Positions 29,119 to 38,306 of a stretch of 64,000 nt of DNA are shown here, one piece after another. The notes beneath the pieces were generated by a model that made no database searches, was not told the origin of the DNA, and saw only the letters and a program-made list of their open reading frames with translations. Both the position numbers and the translations under genes were made by a program. Positions within the stretch are counted from its first letter, which is position 1. Each line of letters opens with the position of its first letter. The DNA lies in the NCBI GenBank assembly GCA_007279945.1, contig QYPG01000028.1, positions 1 through 64,000 of the forward strand, in the 5' to 3' direction. The stretch is from Streptomycetaceae bacterium. GTDB taxonomy: Bacteria; Actinomycetota; Actinomycetes; Nanopelagicales; Nanopelagicaceae.

Positions 29119-30039
29119 TTAGCTCTTGCCATATTTCTGCAAAATTTGAGCCGCCGATGCAGCGATTTCGGCTCGTATCTCGGCCGGCTCAGTCAACTCG
29201 GAAGAACCAGCAGAGGCCATGACCGAACGTATGAGCCATTCTTGTGAATAAGCATGAGAAGTGGTTTTTGAGGACATCTGAGCTTTGCTGAGATTGAACC
29301 TTTCCATCGCCTCCCTCTTGTTAGTTCTTATTTTTAGTGAGTATGGGATAGCCGAAACTTTGTCTGCAGTGGTGCCCGTAAGTGTGGCCGAACCATGAGC
29401 CTGTTCGCAGTGAAGTATTCGATCAGTTCTAAAACTTCTGAAAGCTTGTGCCTTTTCACAGTATGCCCATACGTAATCATGTAAATTCTCAGTTCGAATT
29501 TCAACTGGCTGTATCTCTCGAGTTGTTATCTCATCAGAGTAGAGCGAATGATATTTAATTTTCATCAGTTTCTTTGAAGATATTGCGACAAGAATCGCTG
29601 ACTTGATGTGATGATCATTTTCCGGTTCGGCGCGCAAAGGTGATGGGAGATTTGCGCGCAAAGAGAGCTTGTCGATCAATGCAGTAGCCATGGTTTTTAA
29701 ATCTTTACGATCATCGGGCAAGGACTGCATCACTAAATCTAAACCTAGCAACAGAGCTATGGACTCCTCTATCGTCAGGTTTCTGGGTTGGCTTAAAGTC
29801 TGTGCATTATGAATAGTCACATAACCAGAATCGAATGAAAGATCCATGAGTTCCAAAGGGGTATAGCCCGGTAGTCCGCACATCCATAAGGTAGTTAAAT
29901 CTGCGACCATCTGATTGGAGGTCACTTCAAAAACATCTGCAAGAATTTTCAGTTCGATGCCTTGATGTGCACTCACATAAGGGACTAGATCTAGAAGTCT
30001 AGAAGTTCGACTCAGTGGCGTCTGCGGAATTTTAGACAT
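29119..30039 (-). CDS. pafC: WYL-domain regulator PafC
   Basis: The product has 306 residues from ATG 30039 (MSKIPQTPLSRTSRLLDLV), which overlaps the pafB stop by 8 nt. It has an N-terminal helix-turn-helix-like region and a degenerate WYL domain (DYVWAYCEKAQAFRSFRTDRI). With PafB it forms a transcription activator of the DNA-damage response in mycobacteria. The name comes from proteasome accessory factor, but the function does not need the proteasome. No pafA is present beside it. Confidence 0.9.
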   Translation of the reverse strand: MSKIPQTPLSRTSRLLDLVPYVSAHQGIELKILADVFEVTSNQMVADLTTLWMCGLPGYTPLELMDLSFDSGYVTIHNAQTLSQPRNLTIEESIALLLGLDLVMQSLPDDRKDLKTMATALIDKLSLRANLPSPLRAEPENDHHIKSAILVAISSKKLMKIKYHSLYSDEITTREIQPVEIRTENLHDYVWAYCEKAQAFRSFRTDRILHCEQAHGSATLTGTTADKVSAIPYSLKIRTNKREAMERFNLSKAQMSSKTTSHAYSQEWLIRSVMASAGSSELTEPAEIRAEIAASAAQILQKYGKS

Positions 30040-30973
30040 GGCTGCGCACCAAATCCTTGAGTGCAGAGATAACACCGTTGCGAAGCTCTTGTGGAGCAAC
30101 TACTAGTACATCATCACCGTGCCACAAGATCGATTCGATAATGCGAGATTGGTCTTGGTAGCTCAGTGTCATTTGATCCCACTCCCCCTTATCAACCAGG
30201 GTTAATGCATGTATTCGAAGAAGATGAGCCTTGCCTTTTCGAACATCAACTGTAGCTATTTCGGATTCACCAACATTTTCAAGATAGTTAACAATGTCGA
30301 AGTCAACTGGAATTTCATACCGGGTCGATGATTTATTCGCTTGAATCAGACCATCGATACGATCTAATCTAAAAGTACGAACTGAGTTCTTCTCCAAATC
30401 CAAGCCCGCCAGATACCAAAAGCCCTTACGAGTTGAAATTGCGTAGGGTGCAACGCGTCGATTTTGTAGCTCCAAATCTCTGCCGATATAGGTGAAGGTC
30501 AGAACGCCTCTTTGGGCAATCGCTTGGGAAATTGCCTCAAAATCAATGTTCGGGGTTCGCAATTGTGGAGAGATATTAGGTATCGCATCGAGGTCAGACT
30601 CAACACCGATAGATTTTAGTTTGATGAGTGCACTTTGTGCGGCTTCATCAAGTGCAGCACCCCTCCAAGCCTCTGCAGCAAGCGAGAGTAGGGCTACGTC
30701 ACTTCCCGAAATATTGCCTATGTCGAGCTGGTAATTTTCACTTGTAATTCGATAACCAGCTTCATCGTCAAAGGCGGGATCAAAACCACCAACTTCAATG
30801 TGAATTCCAAGATTTCTTAAATCATCTTTGTCTCGTTCAAACATACGTTCTTTGGTCTCGGGTGAACCTTCATAGCCATCAACTGAAGAAAATATCTCTT
30901 TTTTTGTTAGATATCTTTTAGTTGCTAATAGTGCGATCGTGAGATTGATTAATCTCTCAATCTTCCGAGACAC
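30032..30973 (-). CDS. pafB: WYL-domain regulator PafB
   Basis: The product has about 313 residues. The N-terminal winged helix (RKIERLINLTIALLATKRYLTKKEI) is followed by an SSVDGYEGSPETKERMFERD segment and a WYL domain with FWYLAGLDLEKNSVRTFRLDRI. It partners PafC in LexA-independent DNA-damage regulation. GTG 30973 has AAAGG 8 nt upstream and overlaps the trmI end by 17 nt. The frame is open upstream to 31009. In many actinobacteria pafA and the Pup-proteasome genes lie between pafB and trmI. Here they are missing. Confidence 0.9.
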   Translation of the reverse strand: MSRKIERLINLTIALLATKRYLTKKEIFSSVDGYEGSPETKERMFERDKDDLRNLGIHIEVGGFDPAFDDEAGYRITSENYQLDIGNISGSDVALLSLAAEAWRGAALDEAAQSALIKLKSIGVESDLDAIPNISPQLRTPNIDFEAISQAIAQRGVLTFTYIGRDLELQNRRVAPYAISTRKGFWYLAGLDLEKNSVRTFRLDRIDGLIQANKSSTRYEIPVDFDIVNYLENVGESEIATVDVRKGKAHLLRIHALTLVDKGEWDQMTLSYQDQSRIIESILWHGDDVLVVAPQELRNGVISALKDLVRSHV

Positions 30974-31808
30974 CGTAGGCACCTTTCGCAGGTCGGCGTC
31001 TACGAGCAAGAACTTCTACCCCAGGTGCCATTCGTCGACTTTGGACTAAGAAACCAGTATGACCAATCATTCGCTGCTGAGGCCGCACAGCTAGACCTTC
31101 ATGGTGCCAGCCTCGTACGAGTGTTTCGCTGCTTTCGGGTTCAGTAAAACGGCCATCACTCTTTATCGCCTCTGCCGTGGCAGAAAGTTGTGTAGTAGTT
31201 GCGACGTAGGCCATGAACACTCCACCTGGTCGAAGTGCATTAGCGGCAATATCAACGCATTCCCACGGGGCGAGCATGTCTAGGATTACTCGATCATAGG
31301 AAGAATCAACCTCTTGATCTTGCAGATCTCCAACTGTGAGTTTCCAATTGAAAGGTGCTGCGCCAAAATAACTCTCAACATTTGAACGGGCATTGTCAGC
31401 AAAATCTGAACGGCGCTCAACTGAATGAACAGAACCATTAATAGAGCACGCGCGAAGAAGAGAAATCGTCAATGCGCCGCTACCCACCCCAGCCTCTAAA
31501 ACCCTTGCTCCTGGATAAATATCAGCTAATCCAACAATCATCGCTGCGTCTTTAGGATAAACAATCGTGGCGCCGCGTGGCATAGTGAGTACGTAATCAG
31601 CTAACAGTGGCTTGAAAGCTGTGAACCTAAGTCCTCCCGTAGTGCTCACGACACTGCCTTCAGGCATTCCAATCAACTCGTCATGCGTGATCCAACCCTT
31701 GTGCGTATGCCACTCTTTTCCTGCTGTGATGGTAAAGCTGTACAACTTACCTTTGGGGTCGGTTAATTGGATTCGATCACCCTCACCGAAATACCCTAAA
31801 TTAGACAC
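30957..31808 (-). CDS. trmI: tRNA (adenine-58-N1)-methyltransferase
   Basis: The 283-residue SAM enzyme makes m1A58 in tRNA. The N-terminal beta domain is followed by a Rossmann fold with VLEAGVGSGALTISLLRA (motif I) and VILDMLAPWECVDIAAN. The GTG start is preceded by a leaderless-type -10. It matches Rv2118c in position beside the Rv2119-type nuclease gene on the other strand. Confidence 0.94.
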   Translation of the reverse strand: MSNLGYFGEGDRIQLTDPKGKLYSFTITAGKEWHTHKGWITHDELIGMPEGSVVSTTGGLRFTAFKPLLADYVLTMPRGATIVYPKDAAMIVGLADIYPGARVLEAGVGSGALTISLLRACSINGSVHSVERRSDFADNARSNVESYFGAAPFNWKLTVGDLQDQEVDSSYDRVILDMLAPWECVDIAANALRPGGVFMAYVATTTQLSATAEAIKSDGRFTEPESSETLVRGWHHEGLAVRPQQRMIGHTGFLVQSRRMAPGVEVLARRRRPAKGAYGVSED

Positions 31809-33337: not shown

Positions 33338-34201
33338 ATGGAGATACTTCACATCCCTGCTCTACGTAACCCGGTCATGCTGTGCGCCTTCACCGGATGG
33401 AATGATGCAGCCGAAGCGGCAAGTGCGGCGGTCGAGCATGTATTGGATGCACTCACTGCAGGTGACTCTGATATAACTTCAACCTTGATAGGCGTGATAG
33501 ATTCTGATGAGTACTTTGATTTTCAAGTTAATCGCCCACAAGTTTCGCTCGACGAATTCGATAATCGCACAATTACGTGGCCATCTACACAAATATGGGG
33601 TTTACACGTTCCAGGTTTCTCGCGCGATTTCGTAATTGTCAATGGCACTGAACCCTCGATGCATTGGAAATCTTTTGTTAATGAGGTACTTGATTTAGCC
33701 GATGATTTGGAAGTTTCGCTCGTGGTAACAATTGGTTCTCTTTTAGCCGATGTGCCGCATAGTCGTCCAATATCGGTTGGGCTCAGTGCTTCCAATCCAG
33801 CCCTAGCTAAGGATTTAGGTTTAGAGATTTCTCGATATGAAGGATCAACCGGAATTTTGGGAATTATCAATGATGGTGCTCTCCGCAGAGGAATCGATGC
33901 CATATCCATGTGGGCCGCTATTCCACACTATGCATCAAATTCGCCGTCGCCTAAAGCATCTCTCGCGCTTATTCATGCAATGGAGGATTTTTTGGAAGTT
34001 CAAATTCCGCAAGGTGCCTTACCTAACGAGGCAGATGAGTGGGAAAAAGAGATCGATGCCTTAGCTCTCGAAGACAGCGATGTAGCCGATTATGTTAAAT
34101 CACTCGAAGAATCAAAAGATGCTCAGGATTTGCCTGAAGTTTCTGGTGAAATGATTGCGAAGGAGTTTGAAAGGTATTTGCGCCGAAATAATCAGAGTTG
34201 A
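33338..34201 (+). CDS. PAC2 family protein
   Basis: The 287-residue PAC2 (proteasome assembly chaperone 2-like) protein is Rv2125-type. Core motifs are AFTGWNDAAEAASAAVEH, LHVPGFSRDFVIVNGTEPS, VVTIGSLLADVPHSRP and a C-terminal acidic region. The family is conserved in Actinobacteria with no firm function. The name comes from distant similarity to eukaryotic assembly chaperones. It overlaps mshC tail-to-tail by 10 nt. Confidence 0.9.
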   Translation: MEILHIPALRNPVMLCAFTGWNDAAEAASAAVEHVLDALTAGDSDITSTLIGVIDSDEYFDFQVNRPQVSLDEFDNRTITWPSTQIWGLHVPGFSRDFVIVNGTEPSMHWKSFVNEVLDLADDLEVSLVVTIGSLLADVPHSRPISVGLSASNPALAKDLGLEISRYEGSTGILGIINDGALRRGIDAISMWAAIPHYASNSPSPKASLALIHAMEDFLEVQIPQGALPNEADEWEKEIDALALEDSDVADYVKSLEESKDAQDLPEVSGEMIAKEFERYLRRNNQS

Positions 34202-35439
34202 AACTCTAAACCTAGTAAAGCGTCTAGGAAGTTTCGGAGCGTGATTGAATCCCCGCCACCGCTTCCTTTTTGAGATCTAGTAGCCCACGACTGCAGGGCA
34301 TGTAAAGCGGATGGAGTATCAAGATCATTTGCTAGAGCACTGACTACTTCCGACATTACTGTCTCTGCAGACTCAACATGTTGCATCGACAAGGCTGTTC
34401 TCAGATTGTTAATTTCATTCTGCGCTTGCAGTAAAACTTCGTTAGTCCACATCCGATCACGATGGTAATGCTCCATCATGAGTGCATATCGAATCACCAT
34501 TGGGTCAACGCCTTCGGCAAGTAATGTGGAAACGAAAACTAAATTCCCTTTACTCTTGCTCATCTTCTCACCATCTAGACCAAGCATGCCGGCGTGCACA
34601 TATGTCGAAGCTAACTCCTTTCCGGTCAACACTGTGGCTTGAGAGCGACACATTTCATGATGAGGGAAAATGAGATCACTTCCACCACCTTGAATATCGA
34701 TAAGCTCAGGGTTTTCGCTATCGGGCGATAAATACTGATTAGCAATTGCGGTGCACTCAATGTGCCAACCAGGCCGACCTTTGCCTAGTTCTGAATCCCA
34801 TCCTGGTTCACCTGGACGCTGTGCCATCCACACTAAGCAATCAAGCGAGTCTTTCTTCCCGATCAGGGTTGGGTCTCCCCCGCGCTGAGAAAATATGATC
34901 TCCATCTCTTTTTTACTCAAGTGCGACAGCGAACCAAAATCTGAGCAGGCCCCATTTGCAAAATACAAGTCGTCCTCAATCAAATACGTTGTTCCTTTAG
35001 ATGCCAGGCCCTGTATCGCTTGTACCACTAATGGAATCGCCTCGACTGCACCGATGTAATGCGCCGGTGGAATGACTCTGAGTGCAACCATATCTGAGCG
35101 AAAAAGATCAATCTGCGAATGCGCTAAAACTTGCCAATCAACTCCATCGCGGTTGGCACGCTCGAGAAGTGGGTCATCAATATCTGTAATATTTTGAACA
35201 TAATTTACTTCACTTCCAGATGCGCGTAAATATCGTTGCAATAAATCAAAAGTTAAATAAGTAGCTGCATGACCAAGGTGCGTTGCATCGTAAGGCGTTA
35301 TTCCACATACATACATGCGGTAGAGATCCTTTTTCGCGAGTTGGTTCTTCGACCCAGTCTTGGAGTCGGTAAGTGATAAAGAGGGCATTGATAATGCGTA
35401 ATCGAGCTTGGGTACTGCGATTGATTGCCACGATTCCAT
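34192..35439 (-). CDS. mshC: Mycothiol ligase MshC
   Basis: This CysRS-like ATP-dependent ligase joins cysteine to GlcN-inositol in mycothiol synthesis. The product has 415 residues. The family start MESWQSIAVPKL is present, then YVCGITPYDATHLGHAATY (HIGH-like), RPGWHIECTAIANQYL (zinc and cysteine site) and KMSKSKGN. The alternative, cysteinyl-tRNA synthetase, is disfavoured by the N-terminus and the short C-terminal part. It indicates that this organism makes mycothiol. The other msh genes are elsewhere. Confidence 0.95.
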   Translation of the reverse strand: MESWQSIAVPKLDYALSMPSLSLTDSKTGSKNQLAKKDLYRMYVCGITPYDATHLGHAATYLTFDLLQRYLRASGSEVNYVQNITDIDDPLLERANRDGVDWQVLAHSQIDLFRSDMVALRVIPPAHYIGAVEAIPLVVQAIQGLASKGTTYLIEDDLYFANGACSDFGSLSHLSKKEMEIIFSQRGGDPTLIGKKDSLDCLVWMAQRPGEPGWDSELGKGRPGWHIECTAIANQYLSPDSENPELIDIQGGGSDLIFPHHEMCRSQATVLTGKELASTYVHAGMLGLDGEKMSKSKGNLVFVSTLLAEGVDPMVIRYALMMEHYHRDRMWTNEVLLQAQNEINNLRTALSMQHVESAETVMSEVVSALANDLDTPSALHALQSWATRSQKGSGGGDSITLRNFLDALLGLEFQL

Positions 35440-35445
35440 GTGCTT

Positions 35446-35451
35446 ATCCTA
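35446..35451 (-). promoter_or_regulatory. Leaderless-type -10 element (TAGGAT) for mshC
   Basis: On the minus strand TAGGAT, 6 nt, then ATG at 35439, within the 23-bp gap after the SCO1664-like gene. Confidence 0.6.
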
Positions 35452-35462
35452 GTTTGTCTTTA

Positions 35463-36167
35463 TCAAAATGCAGGCCAAGGAATTGGCGGCCACTCTTGGC
35501 TTGGAACTGGCATGGTCTTTGCATCGATCATTCGTGTAATGCGCATGTGAAGAGCGTCTATCTCCTGTTCGGTTATATAAGGACTCAGATCAAACTCCTC
35601 ACCCAGTGAACGCTCTAAATAAGACAAAAGTGCCAGCTCGGATTCAAGAAGTGCGTTTCCCGCCCACTGCCACAAAACGGTGCGCAACTTATCGTCGGTA
35701 TGAAAAGTGACCCCGTGATCGCAGCCGAATACCTTTCCAATTTTGTCCGGAAGCAGGTGTCCTATTTTTCGATCAGTGTTGTTGATGATTGCATCAAAGA
35801 AAGCCATACTTCGCAGCTGCGGATGATCTGTAGAAAAGAATTCCGCTAAATCAATACGCTCATCAATCTCAATCCACTCTTGAACCATTCCTTGGCCGTA
35901 AGGACCTTCTCTCAATACTGTGAGAGGAACGAGATCTAACTTTAAAAAACTGCTCACAAGATAGGAAGCGTATTCACGATGGGCTAAATTTCCATCTGGA
36001 AAATCCCATAACGCGCGTTCGCCTGCGATGGGTTTGTAGATACATGTCATCGATGCATCACCCAGGGACGAGGTTGTATACAACGTTGCATTTGAAGCAT
36101 CCACGAGTCGTCCAGTAACGATTAATTCACCAGAGGTTAAGAGTGTGCGTTTAACGTTTGTATCCAT
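35463..36167 (-). CDS. SCO1664 family protein (PI3/4-kinase-like fold)
   Basis: The product has 234 residues. It keeps kinase-like features: an ATP-lysine candidate Lys45 (CIYKPIAGERALWDFP), a catalytic-loop-like NNTDRKIGHLL with Asp132, and a metal-binding-like CDHG with Asp150. The arrangement resembles PI3/4-kinase and HipA-like folds, so it may be an active kinase of unknown substrate. It belongs to a conserved actinobacterial trio with DUF3090 and a histidine phosphatase beside mshC. It overlaps DUF3090 by 17 nt. Confidence 0.82.
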   Translation of the reverse strand: MDTNVKRTLLTSGELIVTGRLVDASNATLYTTSSLGDASMTCIYKPIAGERALWDFPDGNLAHREYASYLVSSFLKLDLVPLTVLREGPYGQGMVQEWIEIDERIDLAEFFSTDHPQLRSMAFFDAIINNTDRKIGHLLPDKIGKVFGCDHGVTFHTDDKLRTVLWQWAGNALLESELALLSYLERSLGEEFDLSPYITEQEIDALHMRITRMIDAKTMPVPSQEWPPIPWPAF

Positions 36168-36642
36168 TGGCCCTCGGACACAGATGACCCTGTGGATCTA
36201 TAGGCAGCCCGCACAGAGGGCAAGGAAGACGCCCCGATTCAATAACAGCGCGCGCGCGCTTTACGAAAGCATTGGCCATCTCTAATGAGAGAAAGAGATT
36301 CCAGCCTTGTTGTGACTCTTGTTCTACGTCGAGCAATTCGATTTCGACGTGATTGCCATCCTCGCTCCACGAGATGGAGATAGCTCCAACTACAAAATCG
36401 GCCTCGATAGGTTGTTCTAAAGGCTTGTCGTCACGTTCAAGGAGATTAAGCCCAATGGCGTGCCCACTCTTTCGCAGCTGAGAGATTAACATTTCTAAGC
36501 GCTCGGTGAGTGCGGCTACTTGAGATTTTTCTACCGCAACGGTTGCTAGTTTTCCAGACTGTCGCACTTGTAGGAAAAACGCTCGTTCACCGGGGAGTCC
36601 AACGGTTCCGACTATGAAGCGCTCAACGGAATCGAAAATCAA
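36151..36642 (-). CDS. DUF3090 family protein with C-terminal zinc ribbon
   Basis: The 163-residue product starts MIFDSVERFIVGTVG, typical of DUF3090. The C-terminal CPLCGLPIDPQGHLCPR has the cysteine spacing of a zinc ribbon. Function is unknown. It overlaps the phosphatase gene by 4 nt and the kinase-like gene by 17 nt, so translational coupling is strong. It is probably an adaptor for one of its neighbours. Confidence 0.85.
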   Translation of the reverse strand: MIFDSVERFIVGTVGLPGERAFFLQVRQSGKLATVAVEKSQVAALTERLEMLISQLRKSGHAIGLNLLERDDKPLEQPIEADFVVGAISISWSEDGNHVEIELLDVEQESQQGWNLFLSLEMANAFVKRARAVIESGRLPCPLCGLPIDPQGHLCPRANGYKR

Positions 36643-37310
36643 GCTCCACCGCCAATAAGATTTCGCGCGCGAAACGGGGCGTTGAGGAAACTTTGCAAAT
36701 CCGATCGTGAGTCATTCATTAATAGTACGCGAGGCTTGTCCGACGAATAATCCAAAACCGTGACGGAGGCTGGATCGATCACTATTCGCTGGAAATCATC
36801 TAAATGCATCGCTAAAACCGAAGACACAATTGTTTTGATTACATCTCCGTGAGTCACAAAAACATCTGACCCCTTACCTTTTTTAGCAAGCGCCTTGTGA
36901 ATTGCACTCATTGCACGAACTTGTACCTGTGCTAATCCTTCACCCCCTGGAAAATACATCGAGCTGGGCGAATTTTGAACGGTTTTCCACTCACGCTTTC
37001 CTGATAGTAACGAGAGTTTTTTACCACTCCAATTACCATAATCAACCTCAACGATGTCGCTATCTTGTACAAGTGCGACCTTGGGATTCTTCACTGATCC
37101 GACCTCGTTCCACCACGGCGAAATGGTTTCACTGCATCGAGTGAGAGGGCTGACATGTAAGGATCTGACTTTGATAGCACCGAGTCGTGAAACTAAACGT
37201 TGCGACTGCTCAACTCCTTTATCTGACAGAGCGACTCCTGGAAGGCGGCCAGATAGAACGCCACGTTCATTGGCCTGAGAATGCGCATGTCTAATCAAAA
37301 CGATCTGCAT
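36639..37310 (-). CDS. Histidine phosphatase family protein (MSMEG_4193 type)
   Basis: The 223-residue phosphoglycerate-mutase-like product has phospho-His site RHAHSQAN at residues 7-14, Arg in SPLTRCSET, an EVDYGNWSGK segment and the second catalytic His in VTHGDVIK. ATG 37310 (MQIVLIRHAHS) is preferred because homologues start here and a -10 TAGCCT lies 7 nt upstream. A longer frame to 37367 overlaps the divergent AKR gene. The substrate is unknown. Partner genes suggest it acts on a phosphorylated product or protein. Confidence 0.88.
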   Translation of the reverse strand: MQIVLIRHAHSQANERGVLSGRLPGVALSDKGVEQSQRLVSRLGAIKVRSLHVSPLTRCSETISPWWNEVGSVKNPKVALVQDSDIVEVDYGNWSGKKLSLLSGKREWKTVQNSPSSMYFPGGEGLAQVQVRAMSAIHKALAKKGKGSDVFVTHGDVIKTIVSSVLAMHLDDFQRIVIDPASVTVLDYSSDKPRVLLMNDSRSDLQSFLNAPFRARNLIGGGA

Positions 37311-37317
37311 AAATCTA

Positions 37318-37323
37318 AGGCTA
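37318..37323 (-). promoter_or_regulatory. Putative leaderless -10 (TAGCCT) for the phosphatase-DUF3090-SCO1664 unit
   Basis: On the minus strand TAGCCT lies 7 nt before ATG 37310, in the 51-bp divergent region shared with the aldo-keto reductase gene. Confidence 0.5.
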
Positions 37324-37349
37324 TCGCAGGTTTTACCGATGCGCCTTGC

Positions 37350-37355
37350 TAGGGT
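37350..37355 (+). promoter_or_regulatory. Leaderless-type -10 element (TAGGGT) for the aldo-keto reductase
   Basis: TAGGGT, 6 nt, then ATG at 37362. No Shine-Dalgarno sequence is present. Confidence 0.6.
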
Positions 37356-37361
37356 CACCTC

Positions 37362-38306
37362 ATGCAAATGCGACGAGCTGGAACTAGTGGACTCACTCTT
37401 TCACGTCTTGGTTTGGGCACTATGACATGGGGGCGAGATACCGACGAACACGAGGCCGCTGATCAATGTCGTGCGTATATAGATGCCGGCGGAAATTTCA
37501 TCGATACCGCAAATACATATGGGGATGGCGATAGCGAACGAGTTATAGGCGGGTTAATAGGAACGCTTTTCGCTCGGGAAGAAATAGTAATCGCTACCAA
37601 GGCAGGATTGAGTTTTACCGACGGGGTCAGGTCAATTGATGCCTCGAGAAATGTACTGATTTCGCAATTAGACAAATCTTTAGCGCGCTTAGCAACTGAT
37701 TATGTAGATGTTTGGCAGATACACGCATGGGATCCATTTACTCCTCTAGATGAAACCCTTGCTGCACTCGACTATGCATACACAACCGGTCGCGCACGTT
37801 ATGTCGGTGTCAGTAATTATTCAGGCTGGCAATTAGCAAGAGCTTCAACTAAGCAGCAAGGTAATTCGATGAAGGCGCCAGTGACGACAACCCAAAATGA
37901 ATACTCTCTACTCAATCGGGATGCAGAGATTGAGATTTTGGAGTCGGCCGACGACTGTGGTGTTGGATTTTTAGCTTGGGCTCCGCTAGCCCGTGGTGTG
38001 TTGACCGGAAAATACCGTAAGGGAGTTCCAAGTGATTCTCGCGGAGCAGCCCCCCACTTTGCAAAACATATTGAGCCATACTTAGATGCGCGAAGCTCAC
38101 GAATTGTTGAAGCGGTGAGCGTGGCAAGTCAAGGTTTGGGTTACTCGCCTTTAGAGGTAGCTCTGGCGTGGGTTCGCGATGCACCCGGTGTGACGAGCGC
38201 AATTGTCGGTGCACGCACAGCTGCACAACTAACGGGACTCCTTAAATCTGAAGAGATTGCTCTTCCACAGGTAGTGCGCAGTGCACTAGATGATGTGAGC
38301 CTCTAA
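37362..38306 (+). CDS. Aldo-keto reductase
   Basis: The 314-residue NADPH-dependent reductase has a TIM barrel with the AKR tetrad: Asp in NFIDTANTYGDG, Tyr in the same motif, Lys in VIATKAGL and His in WQIHAWDP. SNYSGWQLA and the C-terminal AIVGARTAAQL are cofactor-binding motifs. The substrate is unknown. Location beside mshC and the phosphatase trio is typical in actinobacteria. The 3' end overlaps the convergent M20 peptidase by 4 nt. Confidence 0.9.
   Translation: MQMRRAGTSGLTLSRLGLGTMTWGRDTDEHEAADQCRAYIDAGGNFIDTANTYGDGDSERVIGGLIGTLFAREEIVIATKAGLSFTDGVRSIDASRNVLISQLDKSLARLATDYVDVWQIHAWDPFTPLDETLAALDYAYTTGRARYVGVSNYSGWQLARASTKQQGNSMKAPVTTTQNEYSLLNRDAEIEILESADDCGVGFLAWAPLARGVLTGKYRKGVPSDSRGAAPHFAKHIEPYLDARSSRIVEAVSVASQGLGYSPLEVALAWVRDAPGVTSAIVGARTAAQLTGLLKSEEIALPQVVRSALDDVSL

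Follow-up and report, generated by a model that had tools for sequence, protein, structure and literature searches.

Three consecutive genes on the minus strand of an actinobacterial contig overlap one another and encode a histidine phosphatase, a DUF3090 protein and a kinase-like protein of the SCO1664 family. The locus raises the question of what these three proteins do together, and whether their role is tied to the adjacent gene mshC. The genes lie in the window (the whole stretch of 64,000 nucleotides that was analysed) as follows.

36639..37310, minus strand: histidine phosphatase gene (ATG at 37310, stop at 36639; 223 amino acids)
36639..36642, minus strand: overlap of the phosphatase stop with the TTG start of the DUF3090 gene (4 nt)
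36151..36642, minus strand: DUF3090 gene (TTG start at 36642; 163 amino acids)
36151..36167, minus strand: overlap of the DUF3090 and kinase-like genes (17 nt)
35463..36167, minus strand: SCO1664-family kinase-like gene (ATG at 36167, stop at 35463; 234 amino acids)
34192..35439, minus strand: mshC, a neighbour that is placed outside the module by co-occurrence (TIGR03447, E 3.2e-163, 543.4 bits, cut-off 485.1)

The overlaps of 4 and 17 nt given by the initial annotation were reproduced by a check of the open reading frames. The adjacency of mshC also holds; it starts at 35439 on the same strand, 23 nt downstream of the kinase stop. The single promoter that had been claimed was not confirmed, as a consensus scan of 34100-37700 gave 0 sigma-70-like sites (mean of the shuffles 4.9). 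All three proteins pass the curated NCBIfam cut-offs: the phosphatase scores 209.9 bits against TIGR03848 (cut-off 203.85), the DUF3090 protein 161.6 bits against TIGR03847 (117.25) and the kinase-like protein 284.7 bits against TIGR03843 (172.4). On the other side of the trio, a divergently transcribed aldo-keto reductase gene begins after 51 nt. Further genes in the vicinity are those for PAC2, a HAD hydrolase, a RecB-like nuclease and TrmI as well as a pafBC pair.

The host genome comprises 1.33 Mb and the closest named relative of the window kinase is found in Candidatus Planktophila (67% identity). The source is probably a streamlined freshwater actinobacterium. A contig labelled as a Bifidobacterium breve MAG (L079) has the gene order of the freshwater Planktophila-like loci and a kinase identity of 58%; this label is probably wrong. 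FrhB/FdhB-like F420 genes, recognized by Pfam, are located near the trio in several families (L046, 4997-6190, and relatives).

The predicted structure of the kinase-like protein (pLDDT 93.3, pTM 0.91) has a two-lobed protein-kinase-like fold. The closest solved structure is PI4K II beta (Z 17.3, r.m.s.d. 3.6, 219 residues aligned). Z-scores range from 16.0 to 17.3 for PI4K II, from 12.8 to 14.7 for Fam20, from 12.0 to 13.1 for CtkA and from 10.1 to 11.4 for HipA. Z of 8 or more was reached by 84 of 1000 chains, and the 50 matches listed are all kinases or kinase-fold proteins; Foldseek gave an E-value of 1.1e-7. At the sequence level, PF00454 (PI3/PI4-kinase) is matched by 22 of 22 family members at E<=1 (best E 1.1e-13), and the window kinase itself stays below the gathering cut-off with 15.7 bits (27.1 required). 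By sequence, the pseudokinase Fam20A ranks first among PDB entries, with an E-value of only 0.18.

Invariant residues were read from two alignments, one of 22 diverse members and one of 56 members. These residues are K45, E50, D55, E65, N130, D132, R133, K134, H137, D150, G152, R162, T163 and W166. Among them are the ATP-binding Lys (K45), the helix-C Glu (E65), the catalytic Asp (D132) and the DFG-like Asp (D150), invariant in the 22 as well as the 56 sequences. K45, D132 and D150 had been proposed at exactly these positions beforehand. Loss of the two aspartates from homologues had been named in advance as evidence against the proposal, and it was not seen: each is present in 40 of 41 aligned rows and in 56 of 56 sequences of the second alignment. 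From the fold and the invariant K45, E65, D132 and D150, the SCO1664-family protein is predicted to be an active kinase, and probably is one.

The catalytic loop of the window kinase, D132-R-K-x-G-H137, is followed by a D150-H-G motif. D-R-K-x-G-H replaces the usual D-R-H-x-x-N in all 80 named members. The Asn that binds metal, expected five positions beyond the catalytic Asp, is thus absent from all 80, and His137 takes its place. As this replacement occurs in every member, kinase activity is not assured. Viral relatives of the kinase carry the loops DRHTGN and DRHGAN. PI3/4-kinase-like domains are encoded on two viral contigs (L152, 4473-5609; L154, 4566-6359; PF00454 E 5.6e-9 and 1.1e-8). 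The N-terminal segment ahead of them presumably resembles phage head-associated proteins, and it is possible that these are injected kinases. The kinase ends with PWP and a few further residues in 80 of 80 members. In the model of the window kinase this tail is unplaced (pLDDT <50). Conserved in sequence and without a confident position in the model, it appears as would be expected of a docking peptide.

The phosphatase belongs to branch 1 of the histidine phosphatases, family TIGR03848 (MSMEG_4193 / Rv2135c family), and matches PF00300 with 133 bits. The branch 1 signature is complete, with the RH motif, the second Arg, the Glu/Asp and the second His. The active-site residues R7, H8, R58, E88 and H154 are retained in 71 of 71 aligned members; H8 and H154 are the two catalytic His residues that had been noted before. 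The closest solved structure is that of phosphoserine phosphatase 1 (4ij5, E 1.8e-13). Rv2135c from M. tuberculosis has a slow, experimentally observed acid phosphatase activity, with a specific activity of 0.23 on pNPP and a Km of 10.6 mM as printed in Table 5 for the recombinant protein (PMC3866925). Rv2135c has no phosphoglycerate mutase activity, is inactive on glucose-6-phosphate, 3-phosphoglycerate and ADP, and is reported in membrane fractions (PMC3866925). The phosphatases of Actinomycetes (L072-L151) share a C-terminal GGG(A) tail, which reads GGGA in the window (36639-36700); the Gly columns are occupied in 69 of 71 members. This tail is seen neither in most of the non-Actinomycetes tails listed nor in an extra copy of the locus (L064).

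The DUF3090 protein had been described as a zinc ribbon. This description fits the last ~25 residues (CxxC...HxC), where C141, C144, H153 and C155 form a zinc knuckle and are invariant in 41 sequences; the remainder is a separate domain. A remark on metal binding in PMC9425974 is consistent with the invariant Cys and His residues. In the predicted structure (pLDDT 86.7), residues 5-138 or thereabouts form a Pur-alpha-like domain. It aligns with Pur-alpha repeat I-II with Z-scores of 9.7-10.0 over 110-113 residues (best Z 10.0, r.m.s.d. 3.4, 113 residues aligned). Weaker matches are Whirly (Z 6.0), a guide-RNA-binding protein (5.4) and SsgB (4.2). Foldseek alone relates DUF3090 to Pur-alpha with an E-value of only 1.9e-3.

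Neither a PUR nor a Whirly family is among the Pfam matches listed for the 41 members (25 of 27 families), and a PDB profile search gave no PUR match up to E 10. PUR domains consist of two beta-beta-beta-beta-alpha repeats folded into one unit; the two halves of DUF3090 show no significant internal repeat (score 15.86, shuffled maximum 19.01). Furthermore, the DUF3090 proteins are acidic, with a median pI of 4.55 (range 4.26-5.95, n=68). In PUR domains, K-N-R and F residues contact nucleic acid (PMC4764581). DUF3090 is acidic, lacks a PUR family among the Pfam matches listed and has halves no more alike than shuffles. Therefore it is called Pur-like in its predicted fold only. It has no recognizable enzyme-like active site. 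Among 22 candidate viral stretches, no DUF3090 copy was confirmed, and the best hit in a viral structure library is an uncharacterized Bacillus phage protein (E 1.3e-3). As MSMEG_4192 is only presumably the DUF3090 gene, its transposon listing under dibucaine (+1.49; PMC10127668) and its listing in the ClpC1 interactome (PMC10433963) were not counted as evidence on DUF3090.

Co-occurrence was determined in 168 genomes of the phylum, with the phosphatase counted at E<=1e-40. The kinase and DUF3090 are present in the same 78 genomes, and 77 of these also have the phosphatase. In the remaining genome (G157), DUF3090 is located at a contig end. Six further genomes contain only a weaker phosphatase match below the cut-off (140-157 bits). 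In a comparison of 41 loci (40 stretches and the window), order and strand of the trio are alike in 40. The remaining locus, L064, is an additional copy from a genome (G008) that also has the full trio; it consists of the kinase-phosphatase pair and lacks DUF3090. This pair resembles the state of Corynebacterium glutamicum in the control set, which has the kinase and the phosphatase and no DUF3090 match. Whole-genome searches located DUF3090 elsewhere in two Frankia genomes and the phosphatase elsewhere in three Pseudonocardiales genomes in which it was absent from the locus. All three genes were thus retained in 5 of 5 genomes with broken-up loci.

Among the gene clusters of the 41 loci there is no fourth constant gene; the neighbours all vary. 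In the order of the window, the kinase is kept in 117 of 121 genomes, many of which have 1.0-1.5 Mb, and the four genomes without it are drafts of 40 to 140 contigs. The recurring order and strand and the identical sets of genomes exceed chance. Presence of the trio is confounded with phylogeny, however, as PafA is distributed almost identically. A shared clade age of trio and PafA is the main confounder of the co-occurrence argument.

PafA is present in 77 of the 78 trio genomes and in four genomes without the trio. The one trio genome that lacks a match belongs to the window itself; a search of this whole genome gave no PafA, though pafBC remain. A role of the trio in pupylation or the proteasome was considered for this near-identical distribution and was ruled out as a requirement: the host genome has the trio and no PafA match, and therefore the trio does not need PafA. 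In the window, pafB/pafC-type WYL genes are located directly beside TrmI (29119-31808), a position where many actinobacteria presumably carry the Pup-proteasome block.

A tie to mycothiol synthesis had also been proposed, with a check of co-occurrence suggested. This check does not support it. Of the 168 genomes, 14 have an MshC above its curated cut-off. Each of these carries the trio and belongs to the same class as the window, and no genome without the trio has such an MshC; 64 of the 78 trio genomes thus lack it. Accordingly, a mycothiol-specific role (MshA2) was ruled out as the general function. MshA exceeds its cut-off in 29 of 168 genomes, all with the trio, leaving 49 of 78 without it. 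In one genome (G008) the trio and mshC are on different contigs, and among the loci examined their neighbourhood is confined to Actinomycetes. SCO1664 is described as invariably linked to mshC in PMC4255298. Since MshC is present in only 14 of 78 trio genomes and lies on a separate contig in one of them, this linkage is a local arrangement of Actinomycetes. The rejection of the mycothiol tie has a caveat, namely divergent MshC/CysS-like proteins (345-446 bits) encoded by about 20 genomes, of which nearly all also have the trio. Some of these genomes may make a related thiol. Outside the class, such proteins (G134:C5:92620-93720 and about 20 similar) are in many cases encoded beside a separate CysS-like match and are possibly another cysteine ligase.

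Inositol-1-phosphate synthase was traced with PF01658, as PF07994 proved a poor probe (34 of 168 genomes, with most class members missed). PF01658 is found in 75 of 78 trio genomes compared with 48 of the 90 others; the trio genomes without it are G006, G063 and G135. This distribution is compatible with an inositol link and is not diagnostic.

It is about an even call that the trio is a self-contained module of reversible phosphorylation. The SCO1664-family protein, as an active, ATP-dependent member of the PI4K-II/Fam20/CtkA/HipA kinase branch, would add a phosphate group, the TIGR03848 phosphatase would remove it and DUF3090 would recruit the pair to its substrate as a targeting or scaffold subunit. 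The likeliest substrate class would be a serine or threonine of a core cellular protein rather than a mycothiol intermediate. The analysis shows to which families and folds the proteins belong, that the catalytic residues are kept, that the genes occur jointly and that they are retained when unlinked; a common substrate of both enzymes, binding of DUF3090 to either enzyme and the protein nature of the substrate are inferred. The simplest reading is a reversible switch in which DUF3090 does the targeting, because a kinase and a phosphatase are co-inherited with a small zinc protein in which no enzyme-like active site is recognizable. A protein is the favoured substrate for two reasons: two of the three proteins end in conserved, unplaced motifs of a kind that could dock to a protein, and the small phosphates tested were poor substrates of Rv2135c. 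Of the nearest kinases by fold, PI4K II phosphorylates lipids, Fam20 sugars or proteins, and HipA and CtkA proteins. The phosphorylation switch of the initial annotation is retained as a kinase-phosphatase pair with a zinc protein and intact catalytic residues, and its mycothiol component is not supported. Against such a module, the phosphatase could serve metabolism independently of the kinase; recombinant Rv2135c is slow. The pair can also do without DUF3090, as it does in the extra copy and in C. glutamicum.

Alternatively, the trio might run an inositol-phosphate cycle, with the kinase phosphorylating and the phosphatase dephosphorylating a lipid or sugar that contains inositol. In that case the phosphatase would be either the PIP phosphatase that acts in making phosphatidylinositol or the MshA2 of the mycothiol pathway. 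The type II PI4-kinases as closest solved folds, the distribution of PF01658, the adjacent mshC in Actinomycetes and the membrane fractions reported to contain Rv2135c (PMC3866925) agree with such a cycle. It is nevertheless rather unlikely: PF01658 occurs in 48 genomes without the trio and is missing from three with it, the window kinase has no CCPCC lipid-anchoring motif and DUF3090 is left unexplained. The counts for MshC and MshA given above weigh against the MshA2 variant. The invariant His137, which stands in for the metal-binding Asn that the viral relatives retain, and the match to Fam20A, at an E-value of only 0.18, would suit a pseudokinase that binds ATP without transfer and regulates the phosphatase in a nucleotide-gated manner. 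This is unlikely, as His is able to ligate metal and the family invariably keeps the Lys, the Glu, the catalytic Asp and the DFG-like Asp, a combination that pseudokinases usually do not retain.

The Pur-like domain raises a further alternative, in which DUF3090 would bind RNA or single-stranded DNA and direct the pair to an RNA-bound protein of the ribosome or the transcription machinery. The ranking of Pur-alpha, Whirly and the guide-RNA-binding protein among the fold matches points in this direction. In PMC11329110, a transposon mutant of Rv2134c is among those listed with a change under rifampicin at sub-MIC levels (-1.42). On the other hand, the acidity of DUF3090, the lack of PUR and Whirly families among the Pfam matches listed and a PUR-type repeat that does not exceed shuffled controls make this alternative distinctly unlikely. 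SsgB also matches weakly, and to our knowledge it is not a nucleic acid binder. A bolder version, in which kinase and phosphatase cycle a phosphate on RNA or on a core factor associated with it and DUF3090 recognizes the nucleic acid, would constitute a previously unrecognized bacterial writer-eraser-reader system. If true, this system would have a long history in its part of the phylum, with 78 of 168 sampled genomes carrying it, and would be useful enough to have survived genome streamlining, but it has to be regarded as very unlikely. Finally, three unrelated housekeeping genes might be held together by inherited gene order alone. Their presence follows the clade, and PafA and MshA-like genes are similarly distributed. 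The identical sets for kinase and DUF3090, the overlapping frames, the retention after unlinking and the constancy of only these three genes among changing neighbours render this highly improbable.

The trio is already known as three named but uncharacterized families. A search of the open-licence PMC literature for DUF3090, Rv2133c/Rv2134c/Rv2135c, SCO1664, MSMEG_4190-4193, SCO1665 and PF11290 found no report on its function. New here are the substitution in the kinase active site, the predicted Pur-like fold for DUF3090, the almost exact co-occurrence of the genes and the finding that the trio is tied to neither mycothiol nor PafA. This co-occurrence spans a large part of the phylum, including M. 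tuberculosis, Streptomyces relatives and freshwater genomes of 1.2 Mb, and makes the trio a strong candidate for a basic regulatory switch. Two tempting leads, mycothiol and pupylation, are removed. The named active-site residues, the unusual loop, the docking-like tail and the fold of DUF3090 provide testable handles. If the substrate were inositol-linked, the open PIP-phosphatase step could be filled.

The Rv2133c-Rv2134c-Rv2135c / SCO1664 locus of actinomycetes has the same three families in the same order, with mshC adjacent in Actinomycetes. We take Rv2133c to be TIGR03843 and Rv2134c to be TIGR03847. The copy in the window differs from that locus in belonging to a probably streamlined freshwater actinobacterium whose genome has no PafA match. 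Rv2135c is described as a histidine phosphatase in PMC3866925; the window phosphatase is of the same family, and Rv2135c is a weak acid phosphatase and not a phosphoglycerate mutase. DUF3090 resembles Pur-alpha and other PUR-domain proteins in the predicted fold of residues 5-138 (Z 10.0), whereas no sequence match to them was found, and its acidity and zinc knuckle set it apart.

With the type II PI4-kinases, the window kinase shares the closest solved fold (Z 17.3), the Lys/Asp/Asp positions and an N-x-D-R loop that is presumably the one of PI4K. In contrast to these enzymes, it is much shorter, has a DRKxGH loop and scores 15.7 bits on PF00454, below 27.1. It also lacks the palmitoylated cysteine insert: no CC pair occurs in its 234 residues, and we take the CCPCC insert for palmitoylation and lipid anchoring to be a PI4K II feature. 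By fold (Z 10-15), HipA, CtkA and Fam20 fall into the same branch of kinases as the window protein. Unlike in HipBA, there is no adjacent HipB-like antitoxin gene; DUF3090 and mshC adjoin the kinase gene, and the phosphatase and DUF3090 are its constant partners.
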